Source: Puniceicoccaceae bacterium Marseille-Q1082
GTDB taxonomy: Bacteria > Verrucomicrobiota > Verrucomicrobiia > Opitutales > Intestinicryptomonadaceae
Reading direction: 5' to 3'
Assembly (NCBI GenBank): GCA_904424815.1
Contig: CAJGBI010000002.1
Span: 1 to 64,000, forward strand
Length of the DNA: 64,000 nucleotides
Numbering within the stretch: the stretch's first letter is position 1; each line of letters begins with the position of its first letter. This document shows, piece by piece, positions 1-62,340 of the stretch. A program made the translations under genes and the position numbers. The notes under the pieces are model-generated. The model searched no databases, had not been told where the DNA came from, and worked only from the letters and a program-made list of their open reading frames with translations.

Positions 1-77
1 GTGCGCCAGCCATTGAAGGGCTGCCCCCTTACGAAGATTGGCTTCGCCAATGCTTCTATCCCCTCCCCGTTCCCCAC

Positions 78-145: not shown

Positions 146-275
146 GATTTGGCGCAATGCTTTTGGATGAAGAGCGAGTATTCGGGGAAAGCCGCCGGTG
201 GGAGCGTACATTAGTACGTGACCAGTGGCGGCTTTCCCCGAAACGGAGCTATTCGCCAAAAGCATTCGCCAAATC
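146..275. repeat. Long inverted repeat (hairpin) of copy A
   Basis: Arm 146-196 and arm 227-275 are reverse complements over most of their length. Both have GATTTGGCG(C)AATGCTTTTGG at the outside and CGGGGAAAGCCGCC at the inside. The 30-nt loop (197-226) contains its own small hairpin, GCGTAC/GTACGT. The outer part of arm 227-275 is also the last codons of hisF. Confidence 0.85.
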
Positions 276-1025
276 ACGGGCGGGGAGACCCGCGGCTTTC
301 ATCGCGTTCTTCGCCTGCTGTATGCTGTACGTCCCGAAATGGAAAATCGACGCCGCCAAAACCGCGCTCGCCCCGCCGAGCTTCACGGCGTCCACGAGGT
401 GCTGCAAATTGCCAGCCCCTCCCGAGGCGATTACGGGAATGGTCACGGCGTCGCTGACAGCCCTCGTAAGGGCGATGTCGTAGCCGTCTTTTGTGCCGTC
501 GCAGTCCATTGAGGTCAGGAGGATTTCTCCCGCGCCGCGCCGCTGCATTTCCCGCGCCCATTCAACGGCGTCGAGCGGAGTTTTGTTGCGGCCGCCGTGC
601 GTGTAGACTTTCCAGCCGCCGCCGTCGCGCTTCGCGTCGATGGCCACGACTATGCACTGGTTGCCGAACTTGGCGGAGGCGGCGGACACGAGTTCGGGGT
701 CAGACACGGCGGAGGTGTTGAGGGAAACTTTGTCCGCGCCCGCGCCGAGCATCAGCCTGATGTCTTCGAGCGTGCGGAGTCCGCCGCCGACGGTGAGCGG
801 CATAAAGCACTCGCTAGCGGTGCGCTCCACCACGTCGCGCATTATGGCGCGGTTGTCGCTGGAAGCGGTGATGTCGAGGAACACGAGCTCGTCCGCGCCC
901 TGGCGCTCGTAGGCTTTCGCCTGCTCCACGGGGTCGCCGGCGTCGACGAGGTTTACGAAGTTCACGCCTTTGACAACGCGCCCGCCGCATACGTCGAGGC
1001 ACGGAATTATTCTTACGCTCAGCAT
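249..1025 (-). CDS. hisF: Imidazole glycerol phosphate synthase cyclase subunit HisF
   Basis: HisF is the cyclase half of the HisHF enzyme. It converts PRFAR plus ammonia to IGP and AICAR in histidine biosynthesis, in the cytoplasm. The 258-residue protein is a typical length and shows the family (beta/alpha)8 barrel sequence throughout: [16 protein letters not shown] at the N terminus with the catalytic Asp, [20 protein letters not shown], the second catalytic Asp in [13 protein letters not shown], and [11 protein letters not shown]. The ATG at 1025 is 3 nt after the preceding gene's stop, so it is the last gene of a trpS-orf-hisF run. The C-terminal residues DLANAFGE lie past the usual HisF end and are encoded by the outer arm of the structured repeat. 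hisH and the other his genes are not in the window. Confidence 0.96.
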
Positions 1026-13901: not shown

Positions 13902-14301
13902 GAAGGCGTTTTTCCAAAACGGGAAACCTCCCGTCCTCGGGGGCGCGCAATCCCCGCGCCCCGAGGGGGTTATGGCTGAGAAACCTCCTGCCCGCGGCGG
14001 GCCGCTCCATTTTTTTTTTGCAAACTCCGCAAAAAGCCCCCGCCTTCGTAAAAAACCGTTCCGCAGCAAACCGCGCCTGCGCCAGAAGGCAAGGCGCGCG
14101 GCAAATTTGAAATTCGCGGGGACCCGCCATCGGGCAAATGCGGATTCCGCGCGGCCGCCCGCAAGGGGCAAAACTTTGCGCGATCTAAAATTCGCAGCAA
14201 ACCGCGCCTGCGCCGGGATGAAAGCCGGCAAAAGCGGGCTCATTTTCGCGCCCCGCAACAAACTCCCGAAAAAAACAAAAATGTAAGAAGGGAGCGGGAG
14301 A
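13902..14301. other. Intergenic region between purC and rnpB
   Basis: Gene-free. Just after purC is a strong GC-rich hairpin (about 13935-13966, CCTCGGGG with CCCCGAGG) without a T-run. Further on is a 22-bp perfect direct repeat, listed separately. Past the rnpB 3' end the minus strand has a T-rich stretch (about 14283-14271) that may help end that RNA. Confidence 0.5.
14062..14214 (+). repeat. Pair of 22-bp direct repeats
   Basis: Two identical copies of a 22-bp sequence beginning CGCAGCAAACCGCGCCTGCG lie at 14062-14083 and 14193-14214, 131 bp apart. The flanks also resemble one another weakly. The function is unknown; they could be remains of a small duplication. Confidence 0.6.
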
Positions 14302-14669
14302 GAGAAAGTTGGGCTGTAAGCCGGATTCTGTAGTCCCCGAAGGAACCGGCATTCATTTATCTGCCCCCTTGGAAAGGGGCCCCCGCGAGGGGTGCGACAT
14401 ACCCAATGCGTTTGAACGAGCAGTTCCGCATCCTATGTTGTCTTGCACCGGATTGGGTTTTCAATGCCCGCGAAGATTGCTCCCGCGGCGGTGGGCTCTT
14501 ACCCCGCCTTTTCACCCTTGCCGCTCGCGCGGCGGTTTGTTTTCTGCTGCACTGTCCGTACGCGCGCCTTGCGGCGCGCGCCCCGCCCTTTCGGACGGAA
14601 TCCCGCTCTGTGGTGTCCGGACTTTCCTCCCGCGGACGAGCCGCGGGCGAATGCCCGCCCAAAATTCTC
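14302..14669 (-). ncRNA. rnpB: RNase P RNA (bacterial class A)
   Basis: The catalytic RNA of RNase P, which matures tRNA 5' ends. On the minus strand the 5' conserved block GAGGAAAGTCCGGACACC (from about 14628) and the 3' block ACAGAATCCGGCTTACAG (ending near 14314) are both present. These form the P4 core. The ends were set by the P1 helix: GAGAATTTTGGGC at 14669-14657 pairs with GCCCAACTTTCTC at 14314-14302. The length of about 368 nt is normal for class A. Terminal coordinates may be off by a few bases. Confidence 0.95.
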
Positions 14670-31323: not shown

Positions 31324-31405
31324 TGCTCAAGGAGGGACTCGAACCCTCATGCCGTGAAGCACACGAACCTGAATCGTGCGTGTCTACCAATTTCACCACT
31401 TGAGC
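31324..31405 (-). tRNA. tRNA-Leu (CAG anticodon)
   Basis: The 82-nt cloverleaf on the minus strand has acceptor GCTCAAG/CTTGAGC with discriminator A. The anticodon stem is CACGA/TCGTG with loop TTCAGGT, giving anticodon CAG. It has the long variable arm typical of leucine tRNA and T arm GAGGG-TTCGAGT-CCCTC. The 3' CCA is not encoded. Confidence 0.95.
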
Positions 31406-55653: not shown

Positions 55654-55728
<75 letters not shown>

Positions 55729-60198: not shown

Positions 60199-60770
60199 AC
60201 AGGTCGGATTTTTTGAAGGCGATTCTGCCGATTGCCGCTGTCTCGGCGTTTGCGGAAACTGCTCCCGCGCGCAAAACCGCCGTCGTGTTTTACTCGTGGA
60301 GCGGAAACACGCGCGAGTTCGCGCGCGCCATAGGAGAGGCGACCGGCGCTGACGTGTTCGAGCTCGAGCCCAAGACAAAGTACTCCGACAGCTACAGCGT
60401 CGTCGTCAAACAGGCCAAGCGCGAGCTCGAAGAACAGTACAAACCGCCGCTTAACTCCATTCCCGACGTGTCCAAATACGCTGCCGTGTTTTTGGGTACT
60501 CCGAACTGGTGGGGCACCATGTCGTCGCCCGTGAGGACTTTTGTAGCGTCCGGCGCGCTCGACGGAAAGCGGATTATCCCGTTTATCACCCACAGGGGCA
60601 GCCGCTGGGGAAATTTTCCGGCGGACCTTAAAAAGGCGTGCCCGAAATCCGAAATCGCGGATGGCATGGTACTCTGGGGCGATTCCGTAAAAAAAACCTC
60701 CGCGCGGCGCGACATTGCCGCATGGGCGAAAAAAATCCGCCGTATAATTTTTTTTAAATACAGACTATGA
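60195..60770 (+). CDS. Flavodoxin-family protein with export-like N terminus
   Basis: A 191-residue protein using GTG 60195, which overlaps the DUF362 stop (GTGA). The N-terminal MNRSDFLKAILPIAAVSAFA resembles a signal sequence. The flavodoxin fold follows: the FMN phosphate loop is FYSWSGNTREFA, and the second FMN loop region is LGTPNWWGTMSSPV. PFITHRGSRWGNF precedes the C-terminal helix. It is probably an FMN-binding electron carrier or quinone reductase-like protein working with its neighbours. Confidence 0.84.
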   Translation: MNRSDFLKAILPIAAVSAFAETAPARKTAVVFYSWSGNTREFARAIGEATGADVFELEPKTKYSDSYSVVVKQAKRELEEQYKPPLNSIPDVSKYAAVFLGTPNWWGTMSSPVRTFVASGALDGKRIIPFITHRGSRWGNFPADLKKACPKSEIADGMVLWGDSVKKTSARRDIAAWAKKIRRIIFFKYRL

Positions 60771-61309
60771 AATCCAAAAAAATTCTGGTAATTTCCTCGA
60801 GCCCGAGGCGCAAAGGAAACTCCGACGCCATGTGCGACGAATTCGTAAGGGGCGCGCTCGACGCCGGACATTCCGCCGAAAAAATCTTTTTGGGAGACCT
60901 GAAAATCGGCTATTGTAGGGGATGCGAAACGTGCAGCCACCTGCGCAAGCCGTGCCCGCAAAAGGACGACGCGGCGAAAGTGATAAGCGCAATGATCTCT
61001 TCCGACGCCATAGTTCTCGCCACCCCCGCCTATTTCTATACGATGAGCGCACAGCTCAAAACCCTGATAGACAGGTGCTGCGGAGACTACGAAAAAATGT
61101 CCGGAAAGGAGTTTTATTTCATAATAACCGCGGCGGATTCCGAGCGCGAAAATATGGAGAGGGTGGTGTCGTCGCTGAACGGATTTCTCGACTGCCTCGA
61201 CAACCCGAGCCTCAAAGGCGTTATAATGGGCCTTGGGGTATGGCACGCGGGCGAAATCAAAGGCTCTCCGGCGCTGAAAGAAGCATACGACGCCGGATTC
61301 AAAGCATAA
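60767..61309 (+). CDS. Flavodoxin-family NADPH-dependent FMN reductase
   Basis: A 180-residue cytoplasmic oxidoreductase that overlaps the preceding gene by 4 nt (ATGA). Family marks are ISSSPRRKGNSDAMCDEF (FMN phosphate site), YCRGCETC with paired cysteines as in iron-sulphur flavoprotein relatives, and TPAYFYTMSAQLKTLIDR. WHAGEIKGSPALKEAY is at the end. The stop at 61307-61309 is immediately followed by the structured repeat. It is likely a flavin reductase feeding or sharing electrons with the exported flavodoxin and DUF362 protein. Confidence 0.87.
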   Translation: MKSKKILVISSSPRRKGNSDAMCDEFVRGALDAGHSAEKIFLGDLKIGYCRGCETCSHLRKPCPQKDDAAKVISAMISSDAIVLATPAYFYTMSAQLKTLIDRCCGDYEKMSGKEFYFIITAADSERENMERVVSSLNGFLDCLDNPSLKGVIMGLGVWHAGEIKGSPALKEAYDAGFKA

Positions 61310-61310
61310 T

Positions 61311-61442
61311 GATTTGGCGAATGCTTTTGGGCTAAAAACGAGTTGCTGCGCGATAACGGCGACTTTCGCGTATGTTTAATACGCTTCAACCCGCCGTTTC
61401 GCTTGCGCCCCGTTTTTAGCTCCAAAATCATTGCGCCAAATC
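61311..61442. repeat. Long inverted repeat (hairpin) of copy B
   Basis: The 51-nt arms pair with few mismatches: GATTTGGCGAATGCTTTTGG with its partner CCAAAATCATTGCGCCAAAT, then GCTAAAAACG with CGTTTTTAGC, ending CGGCG/CGCCG. The 30-nt loop holds GCGTA/TACGC. Arm and loop lengths are the same as in copy A although the inner stem sequence differs. Confidence 0.85.
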
Positions 61443-62200
61443 GGATACCCTTGGTTTTCGGAACGAACTCCGGAAGTGTTAACGAACCTCTCATGGGAGG
61501 TTCGTTTTTTTGTGGGTGACGGATAACTGTTGACTCTCGCGTATGCCAATACGCTTCAACCCGCCGTTTCGCTTGCGCCCCGTTTTTAGCTCCAAAATCA
61601 TTGCGCCAAATCGGGAACCTGCTGTTTTCGGAACGAACTCCGGAAGTGCTGACGAACTTCTCATGGGAGGTTCGTTTTTTTTGTGGGGAACGAATAACGG
61701 CGACTTTCGCGTATGTTTAATACGCTTCAACCCGCCGTTTCGCTTGCGCCCCGTTTTTAGCTCCAAAATCATTGCGCCAAATCGGGGAAGCTTGGTTTTT
61801 CGGAACGAACTCCGGAAGTGCTAACGAATCTCTCATGGGAGGTTCGTTTTTTTGTTGGATAACGGATAACGGCGACTTTCGCGTATGTTTAATACGCTTC
61901 AACCCTTTGTTTCGCTTGCGCCCCGTTTTTAGCTCCAAAATCATTGCGCCAAATCGGGGAAGCTTGGTTTTTCGGAACGAACTCCGGAAGTGCTAACGAA
62001 TCTCTCATGGGAGGTTCGTTTTTTTGTTGGATAACGGATAACGGCGACTTTCGCGTATGTTTAATACGCTTCAACCCTTTGTTCGCTTGCGCCCCGTTTT
62101 TAGCTCCAAAATCATTGCGCCAAATCGGGGAAGCTTAGGTTTGGGGAGAACGAACTCCGGAAGTGTTGACGAACCTCTCATGGGAGGTTTTTTGTGGGAA
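61353..62200 (+). repeat. Tandem array of five ~171-bp units
   Basis: Units begin with ATAACGGCGACTTTCGCG (or a close variant) at 61353, 61523, 61694, 61866 and 62038, giving spacings of 170, 171, 172 and 172 bp. Each holds the loop, the right arm, GAACGAACTCCGGAAGTG and a terminator hairpin. Only the first unit has a left arm. Units 4 and 5 share a CCCTTTGTT variant, so the array has diverged since duplication. The terminators are at 61482, 61652, 61824, 61996 and 62172, and wobble pairs keep the stems in units 2-4. Confidence 0.9.
61482..61511 (+). terminator. Intrinsic terminator of the flavodoxin operon (first of five)
   Basis: ACGAACCTC, TCATGG loop, GAGGTTCGT, then seven T residues. 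Four similar hairpins follow at about 171-bp steps. The last (62172-62193) has a shortened stem. Confidence 0.85.
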
Positions 62201-62340
62201 TTGAAAATGGGATAGAAGCATTGGTGGAGCCAATCTTCACAAGAGAGCGCCTTAAATGGAAATGCGCCCGAGCGCGGCAAATTCCTTTTCTTTATGTATA
62301 TTATTGAAACATTCGTTTTTTTTGTATTATCCTCTCGATT

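Follow-up and report, generated by a model that had tools for sequence, protein, structure and literature searches.

A dispersed hairpin at stop codons of a Verrucomicrobiota genome, probably akin to the ERIC elements of enterobacteria

INTRODUCTION

What kind of element are the two long hairpins that stand about 61 kb apart in one contig of Puniceicoccaceae bacterium Marseille-Q1082, each beginning where a gene of its own strand ends, hisF in the case of copy A and an open reading frame (ORF) of 180 amino acids in that of copy B? The DNA analysed around them, called the window, is 64,000 nt long and corresponds to C2:1-64000 of the source genome (labelled G000; 2,696,975 bases on 3 contigs, 96% complete). 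The passages on ERIC sequences in the literature consulted describe 127-bp MITE-like elements of Enterobacteriaceae and Vibrionaceae with TA ends, effects on mRNA and a mover given as unknown (PMC2229807, PMC2759123, PMC10969869), which are mostly intergenic and sometimes fused to the C-termini of proteins (PMC2759123). Here we compare the hairpins of the window with this and other known systems, determine how they are distributed within and beyond the source genome, and weigh the ways in which they could have spread.

RESULTS AND DISCUSSION

Two hairpin loci in the window

The features of the two loci are as follows.

1-77, minus strand: tail of copy A with small palindromes, reaching the first base of contig C2
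78-106, minus strand: intrinsic-terminator-like stem-loop and T-run of copy A
146-275, minus strand: hairpin of copy A, 130 nt, from folding and extraction; model match at 150-270 on the plus strand, which folds better
249-1025, minus strand: hisF, its last eight codons (DLANAFGE) and TAG stop lying within the copy A element (stop offset +24); end coordinates computed from the stop offset and the profile match
60767-61309, plus strand: ORF of 180 amino acids 5' of copy B, stop TAA at 61307-61309
61311-61442, plus strand: full hairpin of copy B, 132 nt, inner-stem class 4
61352-62189, plus strand: tandem array of copy B, period 172, 4.9 copies
61481-61506, plus strand: first terminator-like site of the array
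61651-61676, 61823-61848 and 61995-62020, plus strand: further terminator-like sites of the array, with a degenerate fifth near 62169
62190-62262, plus strand: tail of copy B with a small hairpin, within the match of the copy A query at C2:62105-62259

The architecture proposed in the initial annotation is present at both loci: behind a long near-perfect hairpin (275-146 on the minus strand in copy A, 61311-61442 on the plus strand in copy B) come a spacer, a stem with T-run that resembles an intrinsic terminator, and a tail. Fold z-scores are -7.6 for 1-276 on the minus strand and -7.2 for 61312-61520, and 0 of 200 shuffles folded as well in either case. The stretch 61311-62262 comprises one full hairpin and the tandem array (4.9 x 172 bp), the later units of which keep the tip, the 3' half of the hairpin, the spacer and the terminator and lack the outer 5' arm. 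The four terminator-like sites of the array compare with 2.2 (sd 1.6) in shuffles.

At copy A, the NCBIfam profile TIGR00735 matches residues 1-250 of the 258 residues of HisF over its full length (1-254 of 254), and the final eight residues, DLANAFGE, are encoded by the element. Copy B begins directly after the stop codon of the 180-residue ORF (TAA-T-GATTTGG), the product of which we take to be FMN-reductase-like. A search of the window with Rfam 15 gave only an RNase P and two tRNAs above the gathering score and no match at the element; the RNase P is of the bacterial class A (14301-14666, minus strand) and the tRNAs lie at 31324-31405 (minus strand) and 55654-55728 (plus strand). At 18 related loci Rfam matched rRNA, tRNA, riboswitches and one sRNA family, none of them at the tips.

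Copies across the source genome

Two copies had been described initially, and the genome holds far more. DNA searches with the two copies as queries gave 112 and 179 matches, among them fragments and reversed arms; grouped by place, these put the repeat at about 40 places in the 2.70-Mb genome. This count is a lower bound because a copy with other outer arms (C1:1336730-1336849, L326), apparently the first of a tandem pair, turned up later and by model search alone; given this copy, the genome may hold a second sub-family. The copy number may also be underestimated since copies sit at or near contig ends, e.g. at 1-275 (the start of C2) and near C1:1765816, about 5 kb from the end.

By script, 33 hairpins were extracted, of which 32 measure 127-132 nt, in line with the ~127 bp of ERIC, and one with an insert measures 206 nt. 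Their outer arms are nearly constant, as noted initially for the two copies, and the inner stems differ and still pair; at 80% identity the inner stems fall into nine groups, which we read as about five classes. Repeated units are found at seven of the eight class-4 loci. A T immediately precedes the element in 27 of the 33 hairpins, and 15 of the 33 lie between convergent genes according to a crude ORF call. In 25 of the 33 copies the hairpin has a terminator no more than 120 nt away, and the other 8 have an alternative tail; since a terminator thus usually comes after the hairpin, a copy brings a ready-made 3' end. Further nested palindromic modules occur in the arrays at C1:1462537-1463671, C1:1548400-1549571 and C2:367655-368700. 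One such module splits the 3' arm, and a similar-looking module is seen at locus L094 of genome G018.

The constant length of hairpins whose two arms change together had been taken as an argument for selection on the fold. Taken alone it does not carry that conclusion: one template-switching event during replication is enough to rewrite an arm from its partner, and such events are reported to form and to mend stems in one step (PMC8794818). A better argument for recognition or selection comes from the parts of the hairpin that do not pair, which are described below.

Relation to ERIC

On the gene strand, the tip of copy A reads GTCACGTAC-loop-GTACGCTCC, and on the same strand the ERIC tip, which is known from the ERIC primers and is seen at the E. 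coli locus L294, reads GTCACTTAC-loop-GTAAGCTCC. The loop letters of the two tips are identical, whereas the stems differ and yet are paired. As in ERIC, IRU and RU-1, the element is an imperfect palindrome of about 125 nt with a tip of the form GTCA-stem-loop-stem-CTCC (for ERIC as given in the description in PMC2759123). Scanning genome contigs for the G-type tip gave at least 118 stretches, and a looser pattern with 158 matches was discarded in favour of the strict one, as chance matches were visible among them. By our estimate about 120 exact tip matches are expected by chance in 257 Gb, and the first set of loci was picked by the tip pattern; therefore, the number of tip matches proves nothing, and the evidence lies in the arms. 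For 121 distinct tip matches with 50-nt flanks, the mean folding energy was -41.2 kcal/mol with their own arms vs -26.6 kcal/mol with arms swapped between loci, and in 79 of the 121 the own arms were better than all 20 swaps.

We took the 60 best-folding of 100 loci, aligned 50 of them (alignment A1, with neither the source genome nor Enterobacteriaceae) and built the covariance model R1 from this alignment. R1 matches copy A (43.5 bits, E 2.6e-8) as well as two E. coli ERICs, L294 (27.8 bits, E 1.1e-4) and L295 (20.1 bits, E 0.007), so that one model trained on neither recognises both; it also matches elements in G015, G018, G030 and G033. A second alignment, A2, comprises 121 matches at E<=0.001 from 95 loci, including enterobacteria and the two E. 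coli loci and again excluding the source genome. The model built on it, R2, scores copy A at 69.5 bits (E 1.1e-15) and finds classes 1, 2/3 and 5 of the source genome. Among 36 further loci from genome contigs outside A2, three of which (L222, L234 and L247) had been in A1, 34 match R2 at E<=0.01, and in 28 of these the match covers 77 or more of the 121 positions; L188 and L194 are without an R2 match. By these model matches copy A is ERIC-like, which revises the initial view that no known family fits. Copy B is matched by neither R1 nor R2 at E<=10, and its class 4 was not found by R2; its arms, downstream module and position suggest that it belongs to the same family.

The covariation score of A2 (121 rows) is 0.413, compared with 0.151 (sd 0.006) after shuffling; 0 of 500 shuffles reach the observed value, and controls in which the partners were slid by 1 to 3 columns stay at or below 0.165. 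The structured, covarying repeat family suspected from the window is thus borne out. The 32 pairs taken from A2 were selected and counted on one and the same data set, with shuffles and slides as the only controls, and related rows can score above shuffles; within this frame 75.7% of cells pair vs 56.9% in shuffles. Two-sided changes occur in all 24 pairs of the five arm helices. Two other measures lie near the shuffle level (further pair types 109 vs 111.5; pairs with two-sided changes 28 vs 25.6), the share of paired cells is just 57% in helix 1 and 53% in helix 5, and little variation is seen in the tip helices, as the search pattern fixed the tip. A first structure from MAFFT and RNAalifold retained 8 tip pairs alone because the inner stems were misaligned, and was replaced by the pairs of the R1-fitted alignment. 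In A1 and A2, unpaired motifs are kept across distant bacteria with fixed geometry, on the folding strand GGAGY/RTGACC and CAAGG/CAACGC.

Host range

At E<=0.001, R2 finds the element in 13 of 54 relatives including the source genome, and in two of 14 genomes of the genus (G000 and G008); at E<=1e-4 it is found in 7 of 145 genomes drawn over the phylum, the source genome included. Both runs used stricter filters that lose weak matches. Among the positive relatives, G015, G018, G030 and G033 had contributed rows to A2, and G008, G017, G023, G040, G041, G047, G048 and G049 had not. Of 177 genomes of the order, five contain the strict tip (G030 81, G033 73, G000 15, G015 4 and G049 1), and the reversed tip, used as control, gave zero matches in all 177.

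Beyond the enterobacteria, isolates of Lysinibacillus, Sporosarcina, Alteribacillus, Alicyclobacillus, Siminovitchia, Porphyromonas and Desulfovibrio are matched by the models, as are metagenome-assembled genomes labelled Clostridia, Bacteroidales, Alphaproteobacteria, Coriobacteriales, Lentisphaerae, Desulfobacterales and Vampirovibrio, the contigs of which can be misbinned; many of the named records are members of the training sets. With its presence in the source genome and, by model, in records labelled Clostridia, Bacteroidales, Lysinibacillus and others, the element exceeds the host range of Enterobacteriaceae and Vibrionaceae stated for ERIC in the relevant part of PMC10969869. In the open-access full texts searched we found no paper that puts ERIC-like elements outside Gammaproteobacteria. 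A viral collection contained three stretches with the exact tip pattern. Two contigs called viral (L284 and L285) give full-length model matches of 67-84 bits and may be prophage or host flanks. Carriage by phages or plasmids was dismissed, as no DNA match to copy A was found among them.

Position and polarity at gene ends

Taking for each hairpin of the source genome the stop of the longest upstream frame, we found that 29 of the 33 start at an in-frame gene end. The stop lies within 4 nt of the first base of the element in 22 of the 33, 16 of them of the type T/GA, and 24 nt inside the element (as TAG) in seven; offsets of +22, -17, -48 and -64 occur once each. From this position it follows that the element supplies either the end of the stop codon (T/GA) or an eight-codon tail with its TAG. 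Seven proteins, among them HisF, CoaD and Asd, share such an element-encoded C-terminal tail of approximately (D)LANAFGE; the corresponding loci are 249-275 (minus strand), C1:316950, C1:847397, C1:1078089, C1:1690324, C2:675510 and C2:775844. Of the 33 genes preceding the element, the seven whose proteins were scanned (CoaD, L19, HisG, Asd, HisF, class II aldolase and GdhA) are complete, as all extend to within two positions of the end of an NCBIfam profile. An empty site is seen at guaA, which ends ATxGARTGGGAA/TAA or TAG in 11 of 11 genus relatives with a full match (two of the 14 genomes gave none) and reads ATAGAATGGGAA/TGATTTGGCG in the source genome; at this locus R2 finds the element in the source genome and in none of the 11 relatives. 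The initial annotation had listed a palindromic mobile element among its options, and near-identical copies, the patchy distribution over hosts and the empty guaA site indeed suggest that the element is mobile.

Outside the source genome the same polarity usually recurs. The loci from L100 upward comprise 168 strict tips, some places being counted twice and eight or so coming from the source genome; 44 lie within a called ORF and 23 at an edge, which leaves 101 with a called neighbour on both sides. In 73 of these 101 the neighbour on the gene-strand side points toward the element, with median distances from gene end to tip centre of 64 and 63.5 nt, while the distances on the opposite side are broad (medians 156-192). 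Where an ORF end lies upstream of the tip, the stop falls 50-59 nt before it in 47 of 93 cases and 40-49 nt before it in 11. Two E. coli ERICs were examined as well: the one beside cusC in strain BL21 lies 9 nt from the cusC stop with the same polarity, and the second lies 57 nt from the stop of psuT, the nearest gene end of that polarity. Among 19 R2 matches in nine other genomes, an ORF of at least 100 codons ends within 25 nt of the model start in four (two each in G008 and G018, one of the latter having been part of A2) and 47-114 nt upstream in three; for the other 12 the stretch examined contains no such ORF end. The placement is thus strong in several lineages and is no rule of the family. 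The element also follows a sucD-like gene in two different families, at L098 (G018) and L259 (G030); we take both genes to be sucD from their C-terminal sequence.

In 119 of 121 outside matches and in 32 of 33 hairpins of the source genome, it is the strand antisense to the gene side that folds better, as expected if the mismatches are G-U and G-A on that strand and not A-C and C-U. This bias fits an RNA of the antisense strand or a single DNA strand, and the data choose neither. In the source genome, then, the element sits mostly at the stop codon in one polarity, with the better-folding strand antisense and usually a terminator next to it.

Could the hairpin be a 3'-untranslated-region RNA, kept because its fold in the transcript sets the formation of the mRNA 3' end or its stability? 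An effect of ERIC on mRNA 3' ends or stability is reported for Yersinia (De Gregorio 2005, as cited in the passages of PMC2229807 and PMC10969869 on this point), and the placement directly after stops, the terminator within 120 nt and the conserved unpaired motifs all agree with such a role. However, it is the strand antisense to the gene that folds better, and near-identical copies together with the guaA site empty in relatives need mobility anyway. We therefore consider an RNA of this kind, taken as the whole explanation, somewhat doubtful.

Inverted copies of coding ends and the search for a mover

In 80 stop-adjacent elements (11 from the source genome) we compared the last 30 coding bases and the stop with the 3' flank, allowing one mismatch. 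At least 11 complementary nucleotides were found in 10 of the 80, against an expectation of 0.6 from swaps, and 13 or more in five, against an expectation of 0. The clearest case is L259 in G030 with 19 nt, followed by L135 and L186 with 15 nt each and L217 with 13 nt; L192 is the tenth of the ten. These ten runs have to be read with the caveat that at L111, L118 and probably L155 the reading frame runs on into the element and that the two copies of L170 have a common end, which they may carry themselves. A few 3' arms thus hold an inverted copy of the coding end of their host gene. Selection on an RNA alone would not predict such copies, which further weakens the argument made initially for selection on the fold.

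Candidate enzymes were sought by their domains. Y1_Tnp gave no match in G000, G015, G018, G030 and G033 (controls positive in 5 of 14 genomes), DDE_3 none in G000, G015, G018 and G030 and one in G033 (controls positive in 3 of 14), and RVT_1 none in G000, G015, G030 and G033 and two in G018 (controls positive in 3 of 14). RAYT, IS630-like and RVT_1 enzymes were rejected as movers since they were not found in the source genome. Therefore, a mover outside these families or the host's own replication is favoured.

These searches bear on the possibility that the element is a MITE mobilised in trans by a known type of transposase, either IS630-like with a TA target or RAYT/Y1 as for REP sequences. 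ERICs are indeed described as MITE-like, with TA ends and TA duplications, in the corresponding section of PMC2759123, and the one DDE_3 match in G033 would fit; but with neither Y1_Tnp nor DDE_3 in the four other genomes we regard this route as unlikely. Improbable, in our opinion, is an RNA copied back by a reverse transcriptase, in which the antisense strand would be the RNA and a nicked sense strand would prime the cDNA at the gene end: strand asymmetry and polarity to the gene fit target-primed synthesis and the inverted target copies fit a fold-back of the cDNA, but RVT_1 gave no match in four of the five genomes, with matches only in G018.

A further comparison concerns the attC sites of integrons, the folded strand of which is antisense to the gene and has unpaired bases and a variable inner part, the site lying after the stop and carrying the core motif RYYYAAC / GTTRRRY. 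The element shares with attC the folded antisense strand, the unpaired bases, the variable inner part and the position after the stop, and attC-like sites, recombined by an integrase as a folded bottom strand right after the stop, would account for the polarity, the unpaired motifs and the gene-end position; yet they are highly improbable here, because the RYYYAAC/GTTRRRY pair is not conserved at the ends of A1 (50 sequences), for which reason attC identity was rejected, and because the genes checked are scattered housekeeping genes and form no cassette array.

A branch of ERIC-like hairpins

Taken together, the element is probably the branch, in this genome, of a group of dispersed, non-autonomous DNA hairpins akin to ERIC (IRU, RU-1), a group whose hosts extend well past the enterobacteria. 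The family consists of many dispersed copies of a hairpin of fixed geometry with two conserved motifs that lack Watson-Crick pairing. It differs from the ERICs of enterobacteria in its host range, in its other outer and inner arms, in the strong gene-end placement in the source genome, in the attached terminator and in the tandem arrays. REP/BIME sequences, which are moved by RAYT, are likewise dispersed extragenic palindromes in mosaic arrays, but they measure 20-40 bp (according to the section on REPs in PMC3733652) as against 130 nt here, and the five genomes searched gave no Y1_Tnp match. QMITE2 of Coxiella, too, is reported to lie mainly in 3' untranslated regions (PMC10969869).

If the element is such a mobile hairpin, each copy would give the gene a new 3' untranslated region while costing it little: landing at a stop codon with its own terminator, it would supersede the old 3' end. 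How it moves we can address only tentatively, and we are less sure of this part; one possibility is that the element spreads as a single-stranded hairpin by template switching. The 3' end of the sense strand at a gene terminus would copy the element by template switching, and the new strand would then fold back and copy the gene end; this fold-back copying would leave the inverted coding-sequence copies seen in some 3' arms. More speculative still, and in our view rather unlikely as a whole, is the general conjecture of a pan-bacterial class of mobile hairpins, with ERICs as its enterobacterial end, whose members sit at stop codons in fixed polarity, have no dedicated transposase and move by self-primed template switching, in the course of which the target gene's end enters the element as an inverted repeat.

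ERIC repeats have long been used for typing without their mode of movement having been settled, and a 2024 review still assigns them to two families of Gammaproteobacteria (PMC10969869). Here, ERIC-like hairpins were found in many bacterial groups, often right at the stop codons of ordinary genes and in a fixed orientation. If this hairpin of fixed geometry does span many phyla, often at gene ends with a single polarity, the question of what moves ERIC can be asked of many genomes: candidate enzymes can be removed by their absence, as here for three families in a few hosts, and the inverted coding-sequence copies provide a concrete footprint for testing mechanisms.
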